A stretch of 20,033 nt of DNA from Eubacterium sp. (GTDB taxonomy: Bacteria; Bacillota_A; Clostridia; Lachnospirales; Lachnospiraceae). A program made the translations under genes and the position numbers. Below, in pieces: positions 2-14,368 of the stretch (position 1 is its first letter; every line of letters starts with the position of its first letter). The notes beneath the pieces are model-generated. The model saw only the letters and a list, made by a program, of their open reading frames with translations, did no database searches and had not been told where the DNA came from. The stretch lies in the NCBI GenBank assembly GCA_017475785.1, contig JAFVEX010000087.1, positions 1-20,033 of the forward strand, given 5' to 3'.

Positions 2-1057
2 AAAACAGAAATCAGGCGGATCTGTATCCTGCTGGTCACAGCATGGATCCTTGTCTGCAGAATGTCTGCGACAGGCGTTTCTGCAAAATCAGTGACTGAT
101 CCGCAGAAAAAGGGGAGTTTTATTATTCATTACTATGATGGCGGCAATCAATCGGACCCGGTCATCGGAGCCGTTTTTACTTACTACAAGATCGCGGATC
201 TTGCTCAGAATGTGACAGCCGGCAGTTTTGAGAACGGGTTCATTCCGGTCATCACAAAGGAAAACGGCAAAATGATGCCTGTGAGTACGGATACGGCTGC
301 AGATGAAGTCGCGCAGGCTGTCCAGAAAGCCTACAGGGACATGCGTGCTGTAAAAGGGAAAACCTATACCGGAAAGACCGGAAAAGATGGAAAAGCGGTT
401 ACAGAGAACATGGAGCAGGGACTTTATCTGGCTGTGGAGACGAAGCCAGCGGAAAACCACCTTCCATCTGCCCCGTTTATTTTTATGCTGCCGTTTACAT
501 CAGAGGGCGGAGATACATGGGAATATCTGGCGCGCGCCGAGCCGAAGCCGGTTCCCTGCGGAAGTCTGATGATTTCCAAAAAGGTAACAGGTTCTGCCGG
601 AGAAAAAGGCAGAGCCTTTCACTTCACGGTATCACTTGGGGCAAAGGGAAGCTTTGCGTATATCCGGTCCGATGGAAAAGAGGGATCTCTGAAGGATGGA
701 GATACGATAGAACTGTCAGATGGCCAGTCGGTTACGGTAAACACGCTTCCATCCGGAACCAGATATGAGATTACTGAAAAAGAAGCCGGAAAGGAAGGCT
801 ATACGACATCTGTCAGAAATGAGAAGGGAAGAATCAGAAGCAAAAAGACTGTTCAGGTAGTGTTTACGAACAGAAAAGATCCAGTGTTGACGCCGGAGCC
901 TGCATCTGAAGCAGAAACAAAAAGAGCGGGCAATGTCATGACCGGTGACTCTGCAAATCTGTGGATTCCTGCTGCGATGATGTCAGCAGGGGCATTGGTC
1001 CTGACAGTTCTGCTGCGCAGAATGAGAAGGGGGAGAAAACAATATGAGGAAACGTAA
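2..1057 (+). CDS. Pilin-like surface protein with C-terminal anchor, 5' end outside window
   Basis: The first ATG in this frame is at 62, but the frame stays open to position 2. The upstream codons read as basic residues then a hydrophobic stretch (RRICILLVTAWILV), which is a signal peptide, so the true start lies left of the window. After it comes a pilin-like region containing GLYLAVETK and SAPFIFMLP. Next is a Cna-B/DUF7601-like beta domain beginning GSLMISKKVTG and containing LPSGTRYEITE. The C-terminus has NVMTGD, a hydrophobic segment and RRMRRGRK, laid out like a sortase sorting signal although the usual P before the variable position is missing. I infer a sortase-attached pilin or pilus-associated protein on the cell wall. 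It overlaps the following adhesin gene by 14 nt, so the two are probably co-transcribed. No sortase gene is visible here. Confidence 0.8.
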   Translation, partial: KTEIRRICILLVTAWILVCRMSATGVSAKSVTDPQKKGSFIIHYYDGGNQSDPVIGAVFTYYKIADLAQNVTAGSFENGFIPVITKENGKMMPVSTDTAADEVAQAVQKAYRDMRAVKGKTYTGKTGKDGKAVTENMEQGLYLAVETKPAENHLPSAPFIFMLPFTSEGGDTWEYLARAEPKPVPCGSLMISKKVTGSAGEKGRAFHFTVSLGAKGSFAYIRSDGKEGSLKDGDTIELSDGQSVTVNTLPSGTRYEITEKEAGKEGYTTSVRNEKGRIRSKKTVQVVFTNRKDPVLTPEPASEAETKRAGNVMTGDSANLWIPAAMMSAGALVLTVLLRRMRRGRKQYEET

Positions 1058-4000
1058 ACGGAGAAGTGTATGGAGTATATTCCTGATACTGACTGTTGTG
1101 CTGACAGTCGTTTTTCCTGCTTTTGCGGCAGGAGCAGCTGTTTCTTCGCAGGCAGAGTCCGGTGCGTATCAGGCGGAAAATGAAATTCTGGTGACGGGAA
1201 CAGGTGATGCGGCACAAGCCCTGCCGGAAGAAGAAACCGGTCAGGGTTCGAGGTCAGAAAGTACTTACGATGGTGGGGCTGAGCCTGGCGAGAATCCTGG
1301 TGAGGAAGCTGTAGATGAGGAAAAGCCTGTATCCGGCGAAAAATCGGTATCCGGTGAGGAAGAACCTGCATCCGGTGGAGAAGCCATGCCGGGAGAAGAA
1401 AGCAGAGGGCGTGAAGAAGCTTTAGAAACACCTGAAAATACACAGACAGCCGGTGAGCAGGACAGGCCAGCTGAGGAAAAACTGACGGAAAGCGAGGAAG
1501 GGAAGACATATGCGCACAATGAACAAGAGGATTCTGTGGAAATCCCAGAATCAGATGATGACACGCAGCCTGAAATACAGTCTGATGAAGTATCAGAGCC
1601 GGAGGAACTGGAAGGGGATACGGCCGATGAAGAGACTGCAGAATCTCTGATGACAGATGACGAGGTACTGATACCGTCAGAACGCGTTGAACAGGAGGAT
1701 CTGGAGGGGATTCTGGGGAGCGGAATTGACCGTCAGGTTGACCCAGAGCTGGATGCGGTAGAAGAACTGATTCAGACAGAAGAAGCCGACGAGGGTATTT
1801 ACCAGATGGCAGCGGAGGCTTCCGGCAAGACAGACGACGCGGCGCTGGATGCAGCGGAGGCAGCAGCCGATGAGGATACTGTAATTCCTGAAGAAGTGGA
1901 GCTGGCACTGGAGAATGCCGGGCTTTCCGGCTCGCCGGACAATTCAGAGGAACTGGACGAGAAGGGCAACAGTCCGGACCGCGGCACGCTCGAGAGACAG
2001 AATGGAAAGTCAGCCGTCTGGGAACCTGCGGATACAAGAGAGGCGGCCATGGCTTACCTGTCTTCATTTGTATTGTCCGAGGTGAAGGATGGCGCAGGTG
2101 ACTGGGATGACGCGAGGGGATATGAAGCAGAAGGAGATGGCTATGACTGGCAGGGGAATGATTCCGACAACCACAATGCGGTCGTCCGGACGTTTGATCA
2201 GGTAACCTATACCTTTAGTTACTCGACTGCGCTCAATACAGAATATATCTATAATACAATCAGCGGGACACGCCTCTATCTGGAGTATTCACTTCCGATG
2301 AAAAGCTCAGAGGTGGTTTTTGACACAGGTGCCATGCCATGGCTGCGCGGAGACGGTCCGGACAAAAAGCCGGTAATTTATTACACACTTCCGGATGGAA
2401 AGACAGTAACTTCATTGGAAAATGGACAGACAGCGGTTTCGCAGCGGCTTGTCGGTTACCGGGAGCTGCCGGACCGCAGGGATTCGGAAGGCGGGGCATA
2501 TGATGTTCCCGGAGCGGGGACAATCAATTGTATTCTGTCGGTGCGTGAGGCAGCAAATAAATCCGTAATAAAACCGGAATTTAAAGCCTGGCTGGAGGCG
2601 GCCGGGCAGAACGAACACGCGCCCGAAGAGAACAGCGGTATCGTAAGAACTGCAGAGAATCCAAAAGGTTTTGCGGATGTCCGGGTAACCTCCGGGCCGT
2701 ATGTTTCCATTCATTTTTTGAAGAAGAACTCCTATCCCTGGACCATGTCCCATTATAATACATTCACATGGCGTGACGGATCATTTTCGGAGAAAGCGGG
2801 GAAAGGACGTATCAAGGCGCTGTATTTCGAAATAATCGCAGGAAAACCGGGCGGAACTATAAAAGGAACATCACCGATTGACAACACAAAGCCAATTACT
2901 GTCAATATGCGGATTCAGGCAAGTGCCTCCGATACTGCAGGCGCGACAGCAGCAGGGCTGTATGACCTCAGAACCGGCGGAATGGGATATGGCGATTATC
3001 TGATAAATGACAGTCAGGAAGCAGACGACAGAATCCGGTTTTTCTGGCACGAGAATGGGGAAGCAATGGCGGAAGAAGCACTCGGGCAGGGGCAGAGTAT
3101 TGGTGCCGGGCCTTCTCGTGACCGGTGGTCCGGAGAAATTAAATCTGACGGGGTACATGCGTCAGACGGACTGTATTCTTTTCAAATACAGAATTTTGAG
3201 CGCTCGGGGGCAGGCGAAACCCTGTCCACCGGTGAACTGTATTTTTTTCAGCAGATGAAAGAGTATGGCGACGCGAACATGCACTATTATCTGGAGGTGA
3301 CTGTTCCATCAATTGAGGCTGTTTCGAAGCTGGGAGGAGGGAACAGGAGCTTTCCGCAGACTTATCTGGACAGCAGCGGAGCAAAACAGGTGACCTCAGA
3401 AACGATCGAGAATCATCTGGACGGCTCCGGAACATGGGATTCTCATTTGAATATACACACCTACGCTTCCGGGGACAACTGGAACAAAGATCCTCATTAC
3501 CGCGCAGAAAGCAGCAACTACTCAACTTCTGCGACAGTCCCGTATGGAAGACCGATCGTACTGTATCAGACAATTACAGTCAAGCCTGCCAGCACTTCCG
3601 AACAGGAGCGCTCAAGACTGTCCATCAATCTCTGGGACAACCGCTATGTAACGGTTGATCATGAAAAGGACGGCCCGGATCCGAACCCGGGTGTCTCCTG
3701 GATGGGCAGACAATTCGGCGAGAACGGCAGGAAGCTGTATATTGTAAAAAATGACGGCTCAACATGGAGCAGCGCAGATGAGATGAAGTCTGTCAGCCTG
3801 CTGACATACCGAGATTTGCTCTATTTTGACAGCTATCAGCATGCTGTATCATTTCTGGCGTCCAAAAATCAGTCAACAGAGAATATCGTCGGGATGGCGG
3901 TTGAGTGGTTTGGCGAGCCGCTCGATCTGTTTCAGCAGGTGCACTTCGAATATGCGCTGCAGCTGAAGACCCGAAGTGATGTCCCGGCGGAGGATGTGAT

Positions 4001-4544
4001 TGGCAAAGTTGTGGAGACCACACAGAATGTCATCGGTTTTCGGGATAAAACCATCAGTGCGCAGCGGTCCATAGGAGGAGCGGATGGCACCGGGACAAAA
4101 CTGACAGCCGCAGAGGTAAAAAACGCCAGAATGATCTGGCCATCCAGGCGTGTATATGACGAAAACTGGGACGCGCTGGGCGATGTCAGCGGAACCAGCA
4201 CCGGCGCGCGCCAGTACACGCCAACCAGCTGGGACACAGATGGACATATTATAGCTTCTTCGCTAAGTGCGCACAACACGGTACATGAGGGACAGAGTAT
4301 TTATATTACCGGCTATCAGCTTAAGGTCAGCGCGGCGATTGTAAAAGAAGAGATCGGCGGGATGGCAGAGCCTGCAGTGACCTGTGACCTGAGTGAAAAA
4401 GAATCTGTGATTTATGAAGTGACGCCGGCATTTCAGCGGGTATTTGGCGTAACCAATGTGTCAGGTGACCTGTTGCTGCCTGCGCCAAAAGGGCAGGACG
4501 GGGCAAAAAATTATACCTCCTTCAAAAATCTGTATGCCAAATAG
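1044..4544 (+). CDS. Large secreted adhesin, N-terminal part, ended by an in-frame TAG
   Basis: ATG 1044 follows a strong AAGGGGGAG site 8 nt upstream, inside the end of the preceding pilin gene. The 1166-residue product begins with a basic signal peptide (MRKRKRRS, then a hydrophobic core ending near AFAAGA). Residues of about 30-330 are acidic and low in complexity, rich in Glu, Ser, Pro and Gly, with short degenerate repeats around VSGE and PGEE. From about residue 340 a folded beta-rich region follows (AVVRTFDQVTYTFSYST), typical of large isopeptide adhesins of gut Firmicutes. The reading frame stops at TAG 4542-4544 and continues in the same frame through 6752. The C-terminal domains and anchor are therefore in the next entry. 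Read through the stop, the protein would be 1902 residues. As written, this half is secreted with no wall anchor. Function is inferred from domain style. Confidence 0.75.
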   Translation: MRKRKRRSVWSIFLILTVVLTVVFPAFAAGAAVSSQAESGAYQAENEILVTGTGDAAQALPEEETGQGSRSESTYDGGAEPGENPGEEAVDEEKPVSGEKSVSGEEEPASGGEAMPGEESRGREEALETPENTQTAGEQDRPAEEKLTESEEGKTYAHNEQEDSVEIPESDDDTQPEIQSDEVSEPEELEGDTADEETAESLMTDDEVLIPSERVEQEDLEGILGSGIDRQVDPELDAVEELIQTEEADEGIYQMAAEASGKTDDAALDAAEAAADEDTVIPEEVELALENAGLSGSPDNSEELDEKGNSPDRGTLERQNGKSAVWEPADTREAAMAYLSSFVLSEVKDGAGDWDDARGYEAEGDGYDWQGNDSDNHNAVVRTFDQVTYTFSYSTALNTEYIYNTISGTRLYLEYSLPMKSSEVVFDTGAMPWLRGDGPDKKPVIYYTLPDGKTVTSLENGQTAVSQRLVGYRELPDRRDSEGGAYDVPGAGTINCILSVREAANKSVIKPEFKAWLEAAGQNEHAPEENSGIVRTAENPKGFADVRVTSGPYVSIHFLKKNSYPWTMSHYNTFTWRDGSFSEKAGKGRIKALYFEIIAGKPGGTIKGTSPIDNTKPITVNMRIQASASDTAGATAAGLYDLRTGGMGYGDYLINDSQEADDRIRFFWHENGEAMAEEALGQGQSIGAGPSRDRWSGEIKSDGVHASDGLYSFQIQNFERSGAGETLSTGELYFFQQMKEYGDANMHYYLEVTVPSIEAVSKLGGGNRSFPQTYLDSSGAKQVTSETIENHLDGSGTWDSHLNIHTYASGDNWNKDPHYRAESSNYSTSATVPYGRPIVLYQTITVKPASTSEQERSRLSINLWDNRYVTVDHEKDGPDPNPGVSWMGRQFGENGRKLYIVKNDGSTWSSADEMKSVSLLTYRDLLYFDSYQHAVSFLASKNQSTENIVGMAVEWFGEPLDLFQQVHFEYALQLKTRSDVPAEDVIGKVVETTQNVIGFRDKTISAQRSIGGADGTGTKLTAAEVKNARMIWPSRRVYDENWDALGDVSGTSTGARQYTPTSWDTDGHIIASSLSAHNTVHEGQSIYITGYQLKVSAAIVKEEIGGMAEPAVTCDLSEKESVIYEVTPAFQRVFGVTNVSGDLLLPAPKGQDGAKNYTSFKNLYAK
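4542..4544 (+). other. In-frame amber codon interrupting the adhesin gene
   Basis: The codons read Leu-Tyr-Ala-Lys-TAG-Leu-Asp-Gly-Glu-Val, with uninterrupted protein-like sequence on both sides in one frame. A single C to T change of CAG (Gln) would create this stop. TAG also serves as the normal stop of the DUF308 gene at 13420-13422, so genome-wide amber recoding is unlikely. Confidence 0.85.
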
Positions 4545-4559
4545 CTGGACGGAGAAGTT

Positions 4560-6752
4560 GTGGAGATTCCGACAGATGGATCAAAGCAGCTGATCTCAGA
4601 TTTTGTAGACGGAGGAACGGGGACATTCTCGGTCTCTTATGATGAGCAGAATAATGATATTCTGAACAGCTATATGAGCGCTGATGACTTCAGAAATGAC
4701 CAGTATGATGGGAAGATATTCCTGATCAGTCCGAAGCAGAAACCGGCACAGGCGTTGTCGGGGGACAATATCCCTTCACTGACGGCGAAGAATGAAACCA
4801 GTCAGGCGCAGCAGTACCAGTTTGTAAAGTCAACGAACGGCGGATATGGAATTCGAAATGTTGCGACAGGAAAGTATCTCTGTGTCCGGAAAACAGGCGC
4901 GGCACAAAATATCGTGCCGGGGAACACGGTGATAGCCGAGCTGGCTGACTGGACTACAACCTGGCATATCCTGGAAAACGCCGACGGAAGTGTATGCTTT
5001 CTCTCGGGTTATGACCCGCATTATGCAATCAATCTCAGAGGCAGCGGAACGACAGCCTGGATGACGACGTATTCCAGCGGGGAAAACCAGACGAATCTGG
5101 ACGAGCGCTGGTATCTCACACAGGTTTCCGGCGGGACAGGCGGCGTATCCGTGCATTTTGAAGGCTTGAATGATGAAGCCGGAATGCCGGTCTTTTATCC
5201 TGAATATACGCTGAACAAAGCGCAGATTTCTACAGATACCGAAATTACACAGACAGTCTTTGTGGCTGGAGATATGACTGCGGGGATCGGAAGCGCCGCA
5301 GATCAGCACAGCGCTTCTACAGGGCTTGATTTTGTGGAAATATACGCAAATGTACTGAAGGAGCTGGTTGATACAAAGACAGTAAAAGTGTCTGAACTGA
5401 AAAGCGGAAAGGAACTGATATACACCATACGCTATACCAACCAGTACAAAGCCGATCATCCCCTTTCGCTGACGGATTCAATTGCATTCAGCGGCGATGA
5501 AGACGGAACAGACATCAGAAAGACAACAAGCCTGAAGGTAACAGCAGTTTCAGCTGCCGCCGACGCAGGAAGTGCGATTACAGTCAGTACAGCGGCACAG
5601 GCAAATGAAAGCAGGAAGATTACCGCGGACGGAACACTGAAGTCAGGAGAAACGGCAGAGATTACATACCATGTGATGGTCGAGAATCCAACAGGAGATA
5701 CCTACATCCGCAACAGCTGTGTGCAGGAAGATACGTTTGGAACTGTCCGTTCCAACCGGGTGGAGACCTGGATCAGAGGAATGACCATGCAGGCTCGTAT
5801 TTATAAGAAAGTCAGCAAGGTTTCAAACAGCATTGGAGAAGCACATACCTGGACACTTACCAGTACGATTCCGGAGGATCTGTATGTGGATCAGGATGTT
5901 GTCTATCAAATTACCGATCAAATAGATCCCGGAAAAAAACGTCTGGATTTTGCGGGAAACGTCAAAGTCCGGCTGAACAAGGCTTCTGTGGATCCGGACA
6001 CTTTTGAGGTGCTTGACGGAAATGAGGAAGAAAGCATCCTGCTGACAGCAGAGACGGATTATCTTCTGGAGGCGCCAGGCGATGGGAGTACAGGCGGGAC
6101 ACTCTGTGTGAAAATGGCACCAGAAGGGCTGAAGAAGCTTGAAGAATATGCAAATGATGGTTATATGGTTCAGGTGCTGTATGACACAGCGATAAATGAA
6201 ACAGCGGAAGCAGCAGTGCATATTCCAAATGACTGTACCCTCGACTATGGTGTGGAAGGAGAATTGCTGCCGCAGGAGAAGAATCCAGTGACTCCTTATG
6301 TCTATACTGGCGATATTCCGATTTTGAAGAGAGACGCGGGAACAAAACGCCCGCTGAAGGGTGTCACATTCCAGATCTTTCTTGATGAGAACGGAACGAA
6401 CCCATTTATGAAAAACGAAAAGCCCTGCAGTATGGTAACAGGAGAAGACGGCAGAGTGCTGTTCCACGGAGAAGAAGACGGAACCTACTACCTGAAAGAG
6501 ATCAAAACCGTATCAGGCCATGATCTTCTTGCCGGTACGTTTCAGGTGACAGTGAAGGATGGTCTGGTCGGGGACGGATCTGATATTATCGTGGATAACT
6601 CTGTCAGTATTCCACTTCATGCAGGCGGAAGCGGAAAGACAGCGTTTGTATCTGCCGCGCTTCTGATGCTTGCCGTCGCCCTGTCATGTGCGGGATGGTT
6701 CCGGCGATACAGAAAATCAGGACACATTCGTAATTTTAAGCAGAGCGAATGA
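4560..6752 (+). CDS. Adhesin C-terminal part: lectin-like, isopeptide D2 and SpaA/Cna-B domains plus membrane anchor
   Basis: This is the in-frame continuation of the gene at 1044. It has no signal peptide. A GTG at 4560 with GGAG 5 nt upstream could allow a restart after the TAG, but the product would lack export information. Residues 50-188 look like a ricin-type beta-trefoil (GKYLCV, WHILEN, RWYLTQV). Residues 265-405 look like a DUF11-like repeat. Residues 412-580 match a fimbrial isopeptide D2 domain, with Lys in KKVSK and Asn557 in IPNDCTLDY as likely bond partners. Residues 586-682 match a SpaA/Cna-B domain (KRDAGTKRPLKGVTFQIF, GTYYLKEI). The end has IPLHAGGSG, a hydrophobic segment at about 694-713 and RRYRK, a degenerate LPxTG/LPxAGG-type anchor. 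It probably forms one wall-anchored adhesin with the preceding part. The last 36 bp overlap the convergent regulator gene. Confidence 0.75.
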   Translation: MEIPTDGSKQLISDFVDGGTGTFSVSYDEQNNDILNSYMSADDFRNDQYDGKIFLISPKQKPAQALSGDNIPSLTAKNETSQAQQYQFVKSTNGGYGIRNVATGKYLCVRKTGAAQNIVPGNTVIAELADWTTTWHILENADGSVCFLSGYDPHYAINLRGSGTTAWMTTYSSGENQTNLDERWYLTQVSGGTGGVSVHFEGLNDEAGMPVFYPEYTLNKAQISTDTEITQTVFVAGDMTAGIGSAADQHSASTGLDFVEIYANVLKELVDTKTVKVSELKSGKELIYTIRYTNQYKADHPLSLTDSIAFSGDEDGTDIRKTTSLKVTAVSAAADAGSAITVSTAAQANESRKITADGTLKSGETAEITYHVMVENPTGDTYIRNSCVQEDTFGTVRSNRVETWIRGMTMQARIYKKVSKVSNSIGEAHTWTLTSTIPEDLYVDQDVVYQITDQIDPGKKRLDFAGNVKVRLNKASVDPDTFEVLDGNEEESILLTAETDYLLEAPGDGSTGGTLCVKMAPEGLKKLEEYANDGYMVQVLYDTAINETAEAAVHIPNDCTLDYGVEGELLPQEKNPVTPYVYTGDIPILKRDAGTKRPLKGVTFQIFLDENGTNPFMKNEKPCSMVTGEDGRVLFHGEEDGTYYLKEIKTVSGHDLLAGTFQVTVKDGLVGDGSDIIVDNSVSIPLHAGGSGKTAFVSAALLMLAVALSCAGWFRRYRKSGHIRNFKQSE

Positions 6753-8228
6753 CAGACGAAGCAAAAAACAGGTTGATATATCGCTCAGATTAATTCCACA
6801 GATTGATTCAATCTTGCCGAGGCGGTATGTGACACTGTTGCGATGGAGGTGCAGGCGCCGGGCTGCGTCTTTGACGCAGCCTCCGCAGGCGAGATAAACC
6901 TGCAGCGTTTCGAGCAGAGCATTATCGGCATCAGAGCGAAGCTGTGCGACCGCGGGATGAAGATAGCGCGTCAGGTCTTCTTCACCCGCTGCGTGCCGCA
7001 GCAGCGTGTAAACGCTGTAGCGGTCAAAGGGATACAGGCGTTCTTCAGGTTCTACCAGAACGCCTGTCTCGAGTGCGTCAACTGCTTCCTGCTGTGCCTG
7101 CCTCACAGAAGTGACTGACTGGAACGCGCGGCTGATCCCAAAGCGGATGTCACTGCCTTCCGGAAACAGCTGCAGCAGTTTTGCTGTGTCGCGCAGTTCT
7201 TTGGCACTTCCGATCACGGAGGCATTGTCACGCTGAACGATGACGTGGCAGGAAGGGAACAGACGTTTACAGCGCTCAGAGAGCCAGGATTCCTTTGGGA
7301 AAGAGGCGGCTTTTCCAGAGGAGCCCGGCCGGCAGTAGACAAGCTGAAGGCGGTCTGGAAAGGGAAGCTGCAGATAGGCCTCGGGCAATGTCTCTGCAGG
7401 AGCCCCGATCAGCAGGTTGTAGAGGAAGCTGTGATAGGTATTTGTCCGGTACAACAGATCGGGAGAATAATTGATAATTGAATAGCCGATTACATTATTT
7501 AAGACACGAAGCATTTCGATATGTGAAGGGCGCCAGGTATCATCTCCCTCGATCAGCAGAATAAATCCCACCCAGAGATCATGGCAGTAGAGTCTGCTGG
7601 AAAATTTTTGGAAGGGCGAAGATTTACAGGTGACTTCGACTGGATCGGAACCGGTCTGGTTCATCTGAACTGATTTCAGAGAGCGGACTTCCGAGATGAA
7701 TTCATAGTCACAATATCCCTGTTCAATATTATGAAGCCAGAGTTTGTCTGTAACTGGAACCTGGGTCGAGTAACTCCTGATACGGAAGTCCCGGTCGCAC
7801 AAAATCAGAGAAGCGCCAAAAGACTGCGACGCGATATCAATGAGTGCGTCGACATTCTGTACACGGTCAGCAACACCCATCAGGTACTGCTGAAAATCGT
7901 TCCTCTGATGACGCCGGATCAGATCCTGCGCCTGATTAAATGCGAGACCAAAATCTTCTGGAGCAATCATTCCCAGGCAGGCACGAACACCCTCCGGGGA
8001 TTTGGCACGCAGATCTTCTGCTGTTTCATCAGCACCGGAAAGAATACAGTGCGCTGGCAAAACCGGTGGGATTTGTGAACTGTAACCAAAATACAGAACC
8101 GAATTATCAAAACGGCTGCTGTGCGGGTCGAATAACCGGACATCGGTTATCTCGATATTACTCTGATCAGAAATAACCTGTACAGGGCAAATTTTAATCA
8201 GTTGCTCAATAATTTGATCAAATCTCAT
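6717..8228 (-). CDS. PucR/CdaR-family transcriptional regulator
   Basis: The last 66 residues (beginning LLETLQVYLACGG and containing DAARRLHLHRNSVTYRLGKIE) match the PucR-type C-terminal helix-turn-helix. Upstream lie a GAF-like region (FGASLILCDRDFRIRSYST) and a CdaR GGDEF-like segment (RFGISRAFQSVTSVRQAQQEAVDAL). The frame extends to a TTG at 8288, but that codon is only about 6 nt from the predicted transcription start. I therefore chose ATG 8228 (MRFDQIIEQL), giving 503 residues; ATG 8249 is an alternative, and neither has a strong ribosome binding site. The gene is divergent from the flavoenzyme-decarboxylase operon and shares its promoter region and an inverted repeat, so it is the likely regulator of that operon. 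PucR proteins usually respond to a substrate of the linked pathway; the ligand here is unknown. Confidence 0.85.
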   Translation of the reverse strand: MRFDQIIEQLIKICPVQVISDQSNIEITDVRLFDPHSSRFDNSVLYFGYSSQIPPVLPAHCILSGADETAEDLRAKSPEGVRACLGMIAPEDFGLAFNQAQDLIRRHQRNDFQQYLMGVADRVQNVDALIDIASQSFGASLILCDRDFRIRSYSTQVPVTDKLWLHNIEQGYCDYEFISEVRSLKSVQMNQTGSDPVEVTCKSSPFQKFSSRLYCHDLWVGFILLIEGDDTWRPSHIEMLRVLNNVIGYSIINYSPDLLYRTNTYHSFLYNLLIGAPAETLPEAYLQLPFPDRLQLVYCRPGSSGKAASFPKESWLSERCKRLFPSCHVIVQRDNASVIGSAKELRDTAKLLQLFPEGSDIRFGISRAFQSVTSVRQAQQEAVDALETGVLVEPEERLYPFDRYSVYTLLRHAAGEEDLTRYLHPAVAQLRSDADNALLETLQVYLACGGCVKDAARRLHLHRNSVTYRLGKIESICGINLSDISTCFLLRLSFALLKITNVS

Positions 8229-8300
8229 ATAATACCGGACGATAATCATGATTAAAACGCGTTGGCTGCATCGCAAAGGATAAAACAATCCTATGGGAGA

Positions 8301-8329
8301 AGTTTAGTGCACGGTTCACAAAATGTCAA
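8301..8329 (-). promoter_or_regulatory. Sigma-70-type promoter of the PucR-family regulator gene
   Basis: Read on the minus strand, a perfect TTGACA (8329-8324) is followed by a 17-nt spacer and TAAACT (8306-8301). The predicted transcription start near 8294 gives a leader of about 66 nt to ATG 8228, which argues against the TTG at 8288 as start. Confidence 0.7.
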
Positions 8330-8346
8330 CAAACTTTTGGGAACCG
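8312..8346. promoter_or_regulatory. Inverted-repeat operator candidate in the divergent promoter region
   Basis: The arms CGGTTCACAAAA (8312-8323) and TTTTGGGAACCG (8335-8346) are complementary at 11 of 12 positions and are separated by 11 bp, so their centres lie 23 bp (about two helical turns) apart. The spacer begins with the regulator's -35 box. A further GGAACC at 8346-8351 directly follows the GGAACC at 8340-8345. The position suits autorepression of the regulator and activation of the divergent operon. Binding is inferred only. Confidence 0.55.
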
Positions 8347-8375
8347 GAACCATGGTGTCAAGGAGAAATTCCTAC

Positions 8376-8381
8376 TATAAT
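8376..8381 (+). promoter_or_regulatory. Likely -10 box (TATAAT) of the flavoenzyme-decarboxylase operon
   Basis: This is a perfect TATAAT about 130 nt upstream of ATG 8510. The region 17 nt upstream has no good -35 hexamer (TGGTGT/GTGTCA), which fits an activator-dependent promoter fed by the inverted repeat centred near 8329. AGGA and TCCT flank GAAAT in the spacer (8361-8373) and may be an extra small palindrome. Confidence 0.5.
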
Positions 8382-8509
8382 TAAATTATCTGATATTTTT
8401 GCGGAATCAAGAGGAATTGGTGATGATAAAAGGGACTTAATCCATGTGATGCGTGAAAAGTCAGAAGACGATGTGGTTGGCTGCTTCATTTTGATGAGAG
8501 GAGGTCAGG

Positions 8510-11320
8510 ATGTACGAAAAGCTATTTGAGAAAGGCCGCATAGGGAATGTGGAACTGAAAAACCGGCTGGTTATGACACCGATGGGAACCAATCTTGCCG
8601 AACTTGACGGAACACCGGGACCGGCTATGCTTGCGTATTTTGAGGCGCGCGCGATTGGCGGCTGCGGTCTGATAATGCCGGAGATCTGCCGGGTCAACGA
8701 AAAAACAGGAGCTGGCATGCTGCGTCAGATTTCTGCGACAAGTGACCGGCACATTCCAGGACTTGCAAAGCTCGCAGAGACTGTTCATAAGCATGGATCG
8801 AAGATTTTTATTCAGCTGCATCATCCGGGGCGTGAGGGCGTTTCGTCACTGATAGGCGGACAGCCCTGTGTATCCGCATCCGACCGTGTCTGTCAGGTGT
8901 CGCAGCAGGAAACACGTCCGATGACGCTGGATGAAATTCATGAGCTGGTCGGCCAGTTTGGCGACGCGGCGCTGCGCTGCAAAAAGGCCGGGATTGACGG
9001 CGTTGAGCTGCACTGCGCGCATGGATACTTGCTGCAGCAGTTCCTCTCTCCATACACGAATAAACGTGAAGATGAGTACGGCGGCAGCTTTGAGAACAGA
9101 ATTCGTATCGTACTGGAGATCATTGAAGATATCCGCAAAAAATGCGGCAATGACTATGTGCTGGGCTGCCGTGTTTCTGTCGAAGAATTCCTTGACAAGA
9201 TCGGCGTCACAGAGGATTACATCCATATACAGGATGGTATCAAAATCGTAAAGACAATGGAAGCTGCAGGCATTGACTTTGTCGATGTCAGCTGCGGGCT
9301 TTATGAGACCGGTATCATGAGCGTTGAGCCGATTTCCTTCCCGCAGGGCTGGAGAAAAGATTTTGTCAAGGCCGTAAGAGATGTTGTCGATATTCCGGTG
9401 ATTGCTGTTTCCGCAATCCGTGAACCGCAGGTCGCAGAAGCATTTCTTGAAGGCGGTGTCAGCGATTTTGTCGGAATGGGACGCACATGGCTTGCGGAGC
9501 CGGAGTGGGGCAAAAAAGTTCTTGAAGGCAGAGAGGATGAGCTGAACAAATGTATTTCCTGTCTGCGCTGCTTCGAGACGCTGCTCTCGCTCAATTCGCA
9601 GGGTCTGCCGTTTGAGTGCGCGGTGAATCCGCGGACATGTAATGAGTATCGGTATGGCGATCTGGAGCCTGACACAGAAGGACACAAGCTTGTTGTCGTT
9701 GGCGGCGGTCCGGCAGGAATGTATGCTGCGCAGACAGCGGCAAAAAGAGGTATCCAGGTTACGCTTCTGGACCGCCAGGAGGAACTGGGCGGAACTGTAA
9801 ATCTGGCAAAGAAACCGCCGCTGAAAGAGCGGATGCAGTGGCTTGCGGATTATCTCGGACAGGATCTGAAGAAGCGCGGTGTGGATATCCGCCTGGGGCA
9901 GGAGGCGACGGCTGACGAGATTGCGGCACTGAATCCGGATGCAGTGATTCTCGCAACTGGTTCTGCTGCTATCATTCCGAAAGATCTGCCGGGTGTCGAT
10001 GGAAGCAATGTCTACGGAATAGAGCAGGTACTGACCGGCAAAGCAGATCTGGCAGGCAAGAAGATTGCGATGATCGGCGCAGGACTTGCGGGACTGGAGA
10101 CCGGCGAGTACCTCGGCGAACAGGGATGTGATGTTACATTCGTTGACCTTTTGAAGCAGGCCGGCACAAATGCATACCGCACGAATGTCGCGGACATCAT
10201 GTCACGTTTGAATAAGATGAAGATCACGTGGGAACTTGGGAACGGTCTGAAGGAAATCCTTGCTGATGGCGTGATCATTGAGAATGTTGACACAAAGGAA
10301 ACAAAGAAGATAGACGCAGAGGCTGTCGTTCTCTCGCTCGGCAACCGCCCGGATCAGTCGTTGAAGGCTGCACTCGAAGAAAAAGGAATTCCGGTAAAGG
10401 TCGTCGGATCTGCGATAAAGGATGGTCTGATCGCGCCTGCGACACGTACCGGTTATGAAGCCGGCGCATCCATCTTTAAGAAAGAAACCCCAAGCTTTGT
10501 AATCCCCAAAGAGCAGATGAGCAATTTCGCGAAGGTTTCCCACATGCGCGGACAGGAGGGAATTTATCTGGCTTACCTGACGCAGCCGGAAGCAATTGCG
10601 AAAATCCTTCCGCCGCCGCTTCAGTCATTCTCAATCCCAGTGGTTACGCTCTCTGTCTGCCATATCAAGGATCCTACCTTTGCAGACAACTATTATGAGA
10701 CAATTCTGGGAGTATACTGTACCTATCAGGGTCAGCTGGGCATGTATCCGATCAGTCTGCTGCTGGGTGGAGAAGGCGCAGAGATGGCGACACAGCTCGG
10801 ACGGGACAATTCGGCGATTCCAAAGAAGCTGGGCGCTGAATTTGTGATCCGCAAAAATGACGGGAAGGTATCTGTTCAGGTTGCCCGCCGCGGCTCTGAA
10901 ATTGTCAATGTTGAGATGACGCTTGGCAGCTATAACCATCCGCTGACGCATATGCTGTATCAGGCGCCTGCAGCAGGAAAGCAGACAGCAGGCAGCGGCT
11001 ATTACTTCCATTTTGACCGTCTCCCGGATGAAAATGGTGTCTGGAGATTCACCAATACAGGCCTGATCAGGAATATTGTCAATTATGACTATGAGTCCTG
11101 GACGCCGGGCTTTGTAGATAAACTGGAGCTGAACTCCAGTCTGGATGATCCGTGGGGCTGCCTGCCGATTAACACCATTGTCGGCGGTACTTACGCAGAG
11201 AATAATCTGCTGATTACAGCGCTCCAGTATCTGGAAGATGTACCTGCAGATGTGCTGATGCCCATGATTATGCCTGCGTGGTATGACAGAACGACATTTA
11301 TGGAAGGCGGCAGGAAGTAA
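8510..11320 (+). CDS. Fusion: BaiCD-like OYE/Fe-S/FAD reductase joined to an acetoacetate-decarboxylase-like domain
   Basis: ATG 8510 follows GGAGG with 5-nt spacing. The 936-residue frame is continuous. Residues 1-340 form an old-yellow-enzyme FMN barrel (QLHHPGREG at 102-110, HGYLLQQFLSPYTNKREDEY ending at 190, probable proton donor Tyr173). Cys348, 351, 354 and 370 form a 4Fe-4S motif (CISCLRC...C). Residues 393-655 hold an FAD Rossmann fold (VVGGGPAGM) and an NAD(P)H fold (IGAGLAGLE). Enzymes of this build, such as BaiCD/BaiH and 2,4-dienoyl-CoA reductase, reduce conjugated enoyl or enone substrates. Residues of about 660-936 match a whole acetoacetate decarboxylase domain, with GRDNSAIPKKLG carrying the Schiff-base lysine candidate Lys772. 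The known homologues I recall keep these as separate proteins. It is probably a cytoplasmic bifunctional enzyme; the substrate is unknown. The SDR gene follows 88 nt downstream. Confidence 0.85.
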   Translation: MYEKLFEKGRIGNVELKNRLVMTPMGTNLAELDGTPGPAMLAYFEARAIGGCGLIMPEICRVNEKTGAGMLRQISATSDRHIPGLAKLAETVHKHGSKIFIQLHHPGREGVSSLIGGQPCVSASDRVCQVSQQETRPMTLDEIHELVGQFGDAALRCKKAGIDGVELHCAHGYLLQQFLSPYTNKREDEYGGSFENRIRIVLEIIEDIRKKCGNDYVLGCRVSVEEFLDKIGVTEDYIHIQDGIKIVKTMEAAGIDFVDVSCGLYETGIMSVEPISFPQGWRKDFVKAVRDVVDIPVIAVSAIREPQVAEAFLEGGVSDFVGMGRTWLAEPEWGKKVLEGREDELNKCISCLRCFETLLSLNSQGLPFECAVNPRTCNEYRYGDLEPDTEGHKLVVVGGGPAGMYAAQTAAKRGIQVTLLDRQEELGGTVNLAKKPPLKERMQWLADYLGQDLKKRGVDIRLGQEATADEIAALNPDAVILATGSAAIIPKDLPGVDGSNVYGIEQVLTGKADLAGKKIAMIGAGLAGLETGEYLGEQGCDVTFVDLLKQAGTNAYRTNVADIMSRLNKMKITWELGNGLKEILADGVIIENVDTKETKKIDAEAVVLSLGNRPDQSLKAALEEKGIPVKVVGSAIKDGLIAPATRTGYEAGASIFKKETPSFVIPKEQMSNFAKVSHMRGQEGIYLAYLTQPEAIAKILPPPLQSFSIPVVTLSVCHIKDPTFADNYYETILGVYCTYQGQLGMYPISLLLGGEGAEMATQLGRDNSAIPKKLGAEFVIRKNDGKVSVQVARRGSEIVNVEMTLGSYNHPLTHMLYQAPAAGKQTAGSGYYFHFDRLPDENGVWRFTNTGLIRNIVNYDYESWTPGFVDKLELNSSLDDPWGCLPINTIVGGTYAENNLLITALQYLEDVPADVLMPMIMPAWYDRTTFMEGGRK

Positions 11321-11408: not shown

Positions 11409-12281
11409 ATGAAGGATTTTAAGGGAAAAACCGCATTGATCACTGGCGCGGCGTACGGATTTGGACGTGAGTTTGTAAAACAGGCTGCAGCCAGAGGCAT
11501 GAAGATTGCTGCTGTAGATATTATAGGAGACGTGCTGGAAGAAGTGATCCCGATTGCGAAGGAATGTGGAGCAGAGGATATCATCACAATCCAGGCAGAC
11601 GTCAGCATCTACGAAGAGACGGAAAAGGTTGTTGCTGCCGTTCTCGAAAAATACGGAACAATTGACCTTCTGATGAACAACGCAGGCGTCGCGGTTCCCG
11701 GAAATGGAATTAATCTTCCGCTCAGGGACTGGGAGTGGATCGTGCAGACAAACCTGATGTCACACATTTATTTCATGCGTCAGGTCATTCCGGTTATGAT
11801 GAAACAGGGAACACACTGCAACATCATGAATACCTGCTCTATCGCCGGTATCATCTATTTCACCGGTATGGCGCCGTATTTCTCTACCAAGCATGCCGCG
11901 GTCGCGCTGAGTGAGTGCGTCAATTATGAACTGCAGGCACTTGGCGCGGATATTGCAATGGGTGTCTTCTGCCCCGGCTATGTTCAGACGCATCTTGACC
12001 ACAGCGAGGAATACCGGCCGGAGCGGTTTAAAGACGATTCCGATCCGTATTACCAGAGCAAAGAATTCGCGGAGGGACAGGCAGCGGCCAAGTACGTCAT
12101 CGAGACAGGCCTTCCGCTGGAGGGATTTGGAGAGACCGTCTTTAAGGCCATCGAAGAGGATCAGTTCTATGTACTGACACATCCGCAGTATGATGGAATG
12201 CTCCAGCTCCAGACAGGTGAAAAACTAAAACGCGCCAATCCGAATCTTGCACAGCTGGTTGCTGCGATCAAGGGTGCGTGA
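11409..12281 (+). CDS. Short-chain dehydrogenase/reductase (SDR), NAD(P)-dependent
   Basis: ATG 11409 has AAGGAGG 6 nt upstream; an earlier in-frame start at 11382 lacks such a site. The 290-residue protein shows the classical SDR pattern: TGAAYGFG at 12-19 for the cofactor, Asp37 at the end of the second strand (suggesting NAD(H) preference), NNAG at 90-93, Asn115, Ser144, and catalytic Tyr157 and Lys161 (YFSTK). The C-terminal part after residue 190 is longer than in 250-residue SDRs and probably shapes the substrate pocket. It lies 88 nt behind the flavoenzyme-decarboxylase fusion with no clear terminator between, so it should be co-transcribed. It probably oxidises or reduces a hydroxyl/carbonyl of the same substrate. 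BaiA-type hydroxysteroid dehydrogenases are a loose analogy only; the substrate is not shown by the sequence. Confidence 0.88.
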   Translation: MKDFKGKTALITGAAYGFGREFVKQAAARGMKIAAVDIIGDVLEEVIPIAKECGAEDIITIQADVSIYEETEKVVAAVLEKYGTIDLLMNNAGVAVPGNGINLPLRDWEWIVQTNLMSHIYFMRQVIPVMMKQGTHCNIMNTCSIAGIIYFTGMAPYFSTKHAAVALSECVNYELQALGADIAMGVFCPGYVQTHLDHSEEYRPERFKDDSDPYYQSKEFAEGQAAAKYVIETGLPLEGFGETVFKAIEEDQFYVLTHPQYDGMLQLQTGEKLKRANPNLAQLVAAIKGA

Positions 12282-13422: not shown

Positions 13423-13554
13423 AAAGCGCGCATGTATTGCCGGGGCTGCGCGCACACACTGAAGAATAGAAGATCGAGCCTGCGCACACAGCATACATTT
13501 TTTGCATGGATCGTTCGTGAGTTCAGGTATGCGCATATACCCTGGAAGGACTGG
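13423..13554. other. Spacer between the DUF308 gene and thiW
   Basis: It contains an imperfect hairpin GCGCGCA...TGCGCGC (13426-13452) without a T-run. I saw no THI-box-like sequence, so no TPP riboswitch is evident upstream of the thiazole genes. In-frame codons from ATG 13432 reach into thiW but are not protein-like. Confidence 0.4.
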
Positions 13555-14368
13555 ATGATAAAGAAGAATAACGACATCAGTATTGAACAGAATGGACAAA
13601 TTACGGAAATGGCACAAAGCAATCAACTCAATTATACTGCAGACAGACAGAAAACCAGAATCACACGGCTGACGTTCATGGGAATGATGATCGCGCTGGG
13701 CGTTATCATCAGCCCGATCCTCCGCGTAGAGGGGATGTGCCCGATGGCGCACCTGATCAATATTACCTGCGCGGTATTAATCGGACCGGTTTACGCGTTT
13801 ATCTGCGCTCTGCTGATCGGTATTCTGCGCATGATTTTTATGGGAATACCGACCGCCGCTCGCCCTGACAGGAGCCGTGTTTGGCGCCTTTCTCTCAGGG
13901 ATGCTGTACCGTTTGTCGAAAGGAAGGCTGATCTGGGCGTTTCTCGGCGAGGTCATCGGAACAGGGATTATCGGTGCCGTCATCTCTTACCCGGTGATGA
14001 CGTTTATCTGGGGAAGAAACGGGCTCAGCTGGATGTTTTATGTGCCTTCGTTCATAGCGGGGACGCTGATTGGCGGCAGCATCGCGTTTTTTATGCTGAC
14101 GAAAATGCAGAAGGCCGGGCTTGTCGCGAAAATTCAGTCTGCTCTGGGATCAGAAGTCTACACAGGCGGGAATGAGGTGTTCAACAATTCTGTTGGAATT
14201 GCGGTGCTTGGCTTTATCGCGTATCTGGTGGTTCTGGTCATTGTGAAAAATTTCGTCAGTGAGCCGACAAGCTTTGTCAACAGTCTGAAATATCTTGTAC
14301 TTGCGGCATTTGTCCTTGCCGGGATTATCTACTGGGCAGTGAATAAAAAGAAAGCCGGTGTATCGTGA
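13555..14368 (+). pseudogene. thiW: ThiW, thiazole ECF-transporter S component, frameshifted
   Basis: ThiW is the substrate-binding membrane subunit of an ECF transporter for hydroxyethylthiazole. The first frame reads RITRLTFMGMMIALGVIISP and CPMAHLINITCAVLIGPVYA, ending sensibly at FMGIP (13851), then turns into non-membrane sequence. Another frame picks up at 13859 with LALTGAVFGAFLSG and continues through GEVIGTGIIGAVISYPV to TGA 14368. Removing the four bases ACCG at 13852-13855 joins them as GIPPLALTGAV, which fits the length I remember for the family. No plausible restart is present (GTG 13877 has GGAG only 2 nt away), and a half protein would not make the usual six-helix fold. I start it at ATG 13555, which has GGAAGGA 4 nt upstream; ATG 13609 is an alternative. 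It overlaps thiM by 4 nt. A real mutation and a sequencing error cannot be separated here. Confidence 0.75.

Follow-up and report, generated by a model that had tools for sequence, protein, structure and literature searches.

The described system with which the locus discussed here compares most closely is the cla gene set, which the passages of the literature available to us assign to Lactiplantibacillus plantarum (PMC9241672, PMC11012127, PMC11719350, PMC13365329, PMC12254105). According to these passages, CLA-DC isomerises a 12(Z)-10-oxo acid into the conjugated 11(E)-10-oxo acid (PMC11719350, PMC13365329, and likewise PMC12254105), which is reduced by CLA-ER (PMC11719350, PMC13365329), and the regulators are LttR and ArgR2 (PMC9241672, PMC11012127). 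We analysed a stretch of 20,033 nucleotides from Eubacterium sp. (Lachnospiraceae; contig JAFVEX010000087.1), a bacterium of gut or rumen, referred to as the window, in which a gene at 8510..11320 on the forward strand joins, in a single frame of 936 residues, a predicted enone reductase of the OYE/4Fe-4S/FAD type and a CLA-DC-like domain of the acetoacetate decarboxylase (ADC) fold. We consider it fairly probable that its product is a bifunctional isomerase-reductase belonging to a small lipid-saturation cassette of regulator, fusion and SDR dehydrogenase, a reading in which we infer every catalytic step and the substrate.

The first-pass annotation of this stretch had proposed a single-chain fusion of a reductase and an ADC-like domain, and domain searches bear this out. 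The reductase covers residues 1-655 (8510..10474, +), with an OYE barrel at 4-344, an Fe-S segment and FAD/NAD(P)H domains at 393-629, the Pfam ADC match lies at residues 666-910 (10505..11239, +), and neither a stop nor a frameshift separates the two. When reference genomes were scanned, 54 loci were obtained, 46 of them with a complete fusion. An assembly or frameshift artefact was set aside because 45 of these 46 read in one frame, the remaining one (L039) being frameshifted. Furthermore, OYE, Pyr_redox_2 and ADC were all matched in each of the 46 fusion proteins chosen as the conservation set. A protein search returned 1601 matches at E <= 1e-3 among 7992 scored candidates; the best 120 of these 1601 are nearly all full or almost full length, and their precomputed Pfam annotation lists PF06314 as well as PF00724. 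Among the hosts are Lachnospiraceae, Anaerovoracaceae, Clostridium cadaveris, Acetobacterium, Oscillospiraceae and one member of the Actinomycetota (Olsenella), and the proteins carry database names such as 'acetoacetate decarboxylase family protein' or '2,4-dienoyl-CoA reductase'. The earlier statement that homologues encode the two parts apart holds for some lineages (L086 and L153, see below), but the fusion itself is not rare. Open-access searches found no description of an OYE-ADC fusion: no title or abstract linked acetoacetate decarboxylase to an old yellow enzyme in a fusion, to an aldolase-dehydratase or to a 2-enoate reductase, or CLA-ER to an old yellow enzyme. In the predicted structure of the full-length protein, the linker (658-666) has a predicted local distance difference test (pLDDT) score below 50 and the predicted template modelling score (pTM) is 0.61; the orientation of the domains is unreliable, and the relation of the two active sites is not fixed by the model.

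Counterparts of the cla genes were found among 395 genomes of one order, presumably Lactobacillales, chosen via the KxYKxGKxW signal-peptide marker, seven of which gave an ADC match. In three loci (L150, L151 and L152) SDR, ADC and nitroreductase genes stand side by side, together with a PucR gene, and the nitroreductases match PDB 4qlx, 'Enone reductase CLA-ER', with E-values of 3.7e-100, 1.6e-129 and 1.1e-123; on the basis of this gene content and these matches, we regard them as cla-type operons by content. Another locus (L149) holds ADC and nitroreductase genes with no SDR beside them, and a similar pair, its second gene named by eye, is present on a short contig (L154).

In the tree of ADC sequences, a single clade with a support of 100/100, or 100/99 after the removal of eight long branches, unites the fusion domains with two stand-alone ADCs from Peptoniphilaceae and with those of L149-L155, and excludes the classical, haloarchaeal and L086/L125-type ADCs. 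The two Peptoniphilaceae proteins nest among the fusions and may derive from a split fusion, but a topology that unites all fusions in a clade of their own is not rejected (p-AU 0.34). Between the window domain and the L151 ADC, identity is 32% over 273 residues, compared with 28% over a match of 105 residues to a classical ADC. The three haloarchaeal ADC loci read were set aside; their annotated neighbours include acyl-CoA and hydantoinase/oxoprolinase genes, in one case with an acetone carboxylase subunit, and no OYE or SDR by name.

The residues of the predicted active site were counted on an alignment, in the numbering of the Clostridium acetobutylicum ADC, whose Arg29, Glu61, Glu76, Lys115 and Lys116 we take to have active-site roles. 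Lys772-Lys773 of the fusion (10823..10828, +) occupy the positions of Lys115/Lys116 and include the predicted Schiff-base lysine, Glu730 retains Glu76, Ser715 stands in place of the lost Glu61 (both within 10652..10699, +), and Gln682 (10553..10555, +) is found at the Arg29 position; all five are invariant across the 46 aligned fusions. Among the aligned ADCs, those of L149-L153 likewise have Gln in place of Arg29, and none outside the clade does. Glu61 is absent from the ADCs of L149-L153 as well, with Tyr at this position, whereas all four classical ADCs examined possess both Arg29 and Glu61, and the identity of a classical acetoacetate decarboxylase was rejected for this reason. The Lys-Lys pair, Glu76 and the Gln for Arg29 of L149-L153, a CLA-DC-type feature set derived in this analysis and not taken from print, are all present in the window domain, which is also linked to a downstream SDR gene and fused to an ene-reductase-family part with predicted enone activity.

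The reductase part shows the OYE barrel, cysteine cluster and Pyr_redox domain of the OYE/4Fe-4S/FAD family. Its nearest structures in Foldseek are 2-naphthoyl-CoA reductase (6qkg_A, TM-score normalised to the target 0.82) and 2,4-dienoyl-CoA reductase (1ps9, 0.81). His168, His171 and Tyr173 (9011..9028, +), which presumably serve in carbonyl binding and as proton donor, are invariant in the 46 aligned fusions, and Tyr173 aligns with the Tyr of the GYL motif in the E. coli dienoyl-CoA reductase. Cys348, Cys351, Cys354 and Cys370 (9551..9619, +), equally invariant, are, by analogy with the family, the probable 4Fe-4S ligands. Two narrower assignments were rejected: BaiCD (NF041087) is the best NCBIfam model for the OYE part, yet the score of 464.7 bits is below its cut-off of 825, and membership in the nitroreductase family of CLA-ER does not apply to an OYE.

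Directly downstream of the fusion, and preceded by AGGAGG, lies an SDR dehydrogenase gene (11409..12281, +; 290 aa), whose product is 47% identical over 280 residues to the SDR of the L151 operon, compared with 22-30% for four SDRs from unrelated places. Both share PRK06194 as the best NCBIfam model, each under its cut-off, and so close a relation to a cla-type operon SDR suggests a counterpart of CLA-DH. On the other side, a PucR-type regulator (PF13556) is transcribed divergently (6717..8228, -; the ATG start at 8228 is a guess, as the longest frame begins at 8288), and the region between the two genes (8229..8509) carries AGGAGG just ahead of the fusion start. A divergent PucR gene was present at 38 of 45 assessed fusion loci, and a related SDR adjoined the fusion at 31 of 43 (25 downstream, 6 upstream); since the queries were taken from the same loci, these counts document conservation but cannot serve as an independent test. 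The SDRs of the cassettes split into three groups, between which identity is about 26-37%, and one locus has a zinc alcohol dehydrogenase between PucR and the fusion (L037:8915-9976), where other loci have the SDR, so the dehydrogenase slot persists with a varying occupant. A protein with two SDR domains in tandem, both related to the window SDR, was also observed (L020:12973-14763, L004:779-2572, L021:4737-6275); it comprises about 597 residues in L004 and L020, is cut by the contig end in L021, and directly follows the fusion in L020 and L021. L020 additionally contains a second copy of the fusion beside the first, on the opposite strand and with its own SDR. Close relatives of the fusion with neither SDR nor PucR neighbours occur in L007 and L003.

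In unfused versions of the cassette, the two parts are separate genes in the same neighbourhood. No cla-type operon was found in the first phylum and class samples, in the plasmid records or in the small orders of G424 and G405, but the phylum sample did give a split cassette (L086, genome G028), in which four adjacent genes of another lineage encode PucR, OYE (646 aa), ADC (270 aa) and SDR separately. Its ADC falls outside the clade of the fusion and cla ADCs although the cassette is the same, so either OYE and ADC were joined more than once or the ADC was exchanged. In the second split cassette (L153, genome G965), which comes from the presumed Lactobacillales, PucR, OYE, SDR and ADC are likewise separate. 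The OYE stands here where CLA-ER stands elsewhere, and in the window it is also fused to the ADC; as the best CLA-ER match in this genome reaches only 25% identity (E 5.7e-5), the OYE seems to take the enone-reductase slot. The OYE parts of L086 and L153 are 42% and 44% identical to that of the window. Another genome (L126, G718; 4880-7108) carries a tandem pair of different ADC-like genes with an SDR behind them.

In regard to the mechanism, the SDR would oxidise a hydroxyl group to a ketone, giving a beta,gamma-unsaturated ketone, with which Lys772 of the ADC-fold domain would form a Schiff base. The double bond could then shift via a dienamine into conjugation, and the released alpha,beta-enone would be reduced by the OYE domain, with electrons passing from NAD(P)H through FAD and the 4Fe-4S cluster to FMN, hydride going to the beta carbon and a proton coming from Tyr173. 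Return of the ketone to the alcohol by the SDR is possible. Such a sequence would parallel CLA-DH, CLA-DC and CLA-ER of L. plantarum, except that the enone reductase is an OYE instead of a nitroreductase and shares one chain with the CLA-DC-like part. Judged by its kinship and gene context, the fusion probably joins consecutive steps, isomerisation by the ADC domain and then reduction by the OYE domain. The idea, put forward in the first-pass annotation, that reduction and lysine chemistry act in turn gains support from L086 and L153, where the same parts neighbour each other with SDR and PucR, while the reactions proposed there for the lysine, decarboxylation or aldol/dehydration, are probably wrong. 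Given the grouping with the cla-operon ADCs and the missing Arg29/Glu61 pair, migration of the double bond to a conjugated enone is the better reading, and the ADC part is probably neither a decarboxylase nor an aldolase.

Several observations weigh against this scenario. The ADC domain shares no more than the above 32% identity with the L151 ADC, the Glu61 position differs between them (Ser in the window, Tyr in L151), and L155, although a member of the clade, carries Glu instead of the Gln of the others. Arg29 and Glu61 have also been lost in several other ADC groups, so these residues alone do not mark an isomerase; their absence counts against the classical reaction but does not point to one particular new reaction. 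The Schiff base is proposed for the isomerisation because the lysine pair is conserved, and the passages on CLA-DC available to us gave no lysine mechanism. The cla-type operons were recognised through their CLA-ER, the named CLA-DC of L. plantarum not being among the sequences compared. In the neighbourhoods, 12 of the 43 assessed loci show no detected related SDR beside the fusion, the window SDR reaches only 26-31% identity with those of the other two cassette groups, and at one locus (L125, G676) the fetched stretch contains PucR, ADC and SDR but no OYE, so some cassettes may lack the reductase.

Other explanations have to be considered against the same evidence. A genuine decarboxylase of beta-keto acids, working together with the ene-reductase, would agree with the Pfam match, the Lys-Lys pair and the retained Glu76, but the replacement of Arg29/Glu61 throughout the 46 aligned fusions and the position in the tree outside the classical ADCs make it very improbable. 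Hardly better placed, and still improbable, is a pyruvate aldolase-dehydratase of the Sbi00515/Swit_4259 type, which would condense pyruvate with an aldehyde into an unsaturated keto acid to be reduced by the OYE; these enzymes have the same fold as the window domain, with classical ADCs ranking slightly higher. The fusion could also serve only the co-expression or stability of two domains that use different substrates, in keeping with their arrangement not being confidently predicted; since the same parts are neighbouring genes in the unfused L086 and L153, again with PucR and SDR, we find this scarcely credible.

The isomerase-reductase reading leaves the choice of the lipid, for which unsaturated fatty acids in hydroxy or oxo form are the most likely candidates. 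A full-length oleate hydratase (PF06100) was detected in 12 of 43 fusion genomes, in all five included genomes with split or cla-type cassettes, and in one of 44 genomes without the cassette (12/43 versus 1/44: Fisher p 7e-4, uncorrected for kinship, genome size or completeness). The background consisted of 46 phylum genomes minus two that carry the cassette (G001 and G028), leaving 44 with no ADC match; the 43 fusion genomes represent the 54 loci without L021, L031, L034, L038, L039, L045, L046, L049, L051, L053 and L054. Partial matches (G1172, G044) were not counted, and one counted gene (G001) has an internal TAG. The distribution is uneven, with 10 of the 23 more distant fusion genomes positive and, as a further point against fatty acids in the window's own lineage, only 2 of its 20 closest relatives (L001-L020, which do not include the genome of the window), so linoleate hydration in the same cell is unsupported there. 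Fatty acids are accordingly the likeliest substrates of the family, while in the window's lineage the cassette may act on hydroxy or oxo lipids that others produce, or on sterol-like substrates.

The latter would imply the same chemistry on another lipid: a 3-beta-hydroxy-delta5 steroid or sterol (or a plant terpenoid or oxylipin) would be oxidised, the ADC domain would shift delta5 to delta4, and the BaiCD-like OYE would reduce the 4-ene-3-one. BaiCD is an enzyme of bile-acid 4-ene-3-one metabolism, and the succession of SDR, isomerase and ene-reductase fits sterol saturation. The best NCBIfam score of the OYE part, although under the cut-off, and the failure to detect a complete oleate hydratase gene in 18 of the 20 closest relatives, among which are several draft assemblies, speak for this option, whereas the kinship of the ADC domain and the window SDR to cla-type operon proteins and the over-representation of the hydratase in the 43 fusion genomes speak against it, and on balance we regard it as unlikely. 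A broader and still more doubtful version would see the fused isomerase-reductase as a widespread clostridial route of oxo-lipid saturation that in the window's lineage, mostly lacking a detected oleate hydratase, acts not on hydrated linoleate but on delta5-3-oxo sterols or steroids or on plant oxylipins, the enone being passed between the sites; in the delta5-3-oxo sterol case it would supply the missing isomerase plus the 5-reductase of coprostanol-type saturation.

Elsewhere in the window, a pilin-like surface protein (62-1057; GramPos_pilinD1, DUF7601, SpaA) adjoins two frames (1044-4544 and 4560-6752) that share their phase and are split by one in-frame stop; together (1044-6752) they look like one large surface protein with SpaA and ricin-type domains in its second part, and the interruption may reflect a broken gene, a sequencing error or a genuine stop. 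Further downstream, a ThiW-like thiamine-precursor transporter apparently extends over two overlapping frames (13432-14368), the first of which matches ThiW, suggesting a frameshift; it is followed by hydroxyethylthiazole kinase and, on the other strand, by a ThiE/TenI-like gene.

If the isomerase-reductase reading is true, the fusion would be a single-chain catalyst converting a beta,gamma-enone into a saturated ketone, the database names mentioned above would have to be corrected, and candidate genes for the turnover of oxo- and hydroxy-fatty acids in strict gut and rumen anaerobes would be at hand. Compared with classical ADC (3bh2), the window domain has the same fold, the Lys115/Lys116 pair and Glu76, but Gln for Arg29, Ser for Glu61 and a place in a separate clade. 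With the family of BaiCD, 2,4-dienoyl-CoA reductase and 2-naphthoyl-CoA reductase, the window reductase has the domain order, cysteine cluster and active-site Tyr in common, while the protein adds a C-terminal ADC domain and scores under the BaiCD cut-off. The split cassettes L086 and L153 have the same content of regulator type, reductase, ADC and SDR, but the genes are unfused and their order differs. The cla operon of L. plantarum, viewed through L150-L152, has the same kind of SDR, an ADC of the same clade and an enone-reductase part in its gene set, and a PucR gene adjoins the operons of L150-L152 as it does in the window; on the other hand, the window reductase is of the OYE/4Fe-4S/FAD type, not a nitroreductase, and is fused to the ADC domain, and its regulator is PucR, compared with LttR and ArgR2 in the passages on L. 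plantarum (PMC9241672, PMC11012127). Next to the known pathway of L. plantarum, a rearranged cla gene set with a different reductase would thus occur in Lachnospiraceae, Anaerovoracaceae, Clostridium, Acetobacterium, Oscillospiraceae and an Olsenella, as a fused, OYE-based, clostridial variant.
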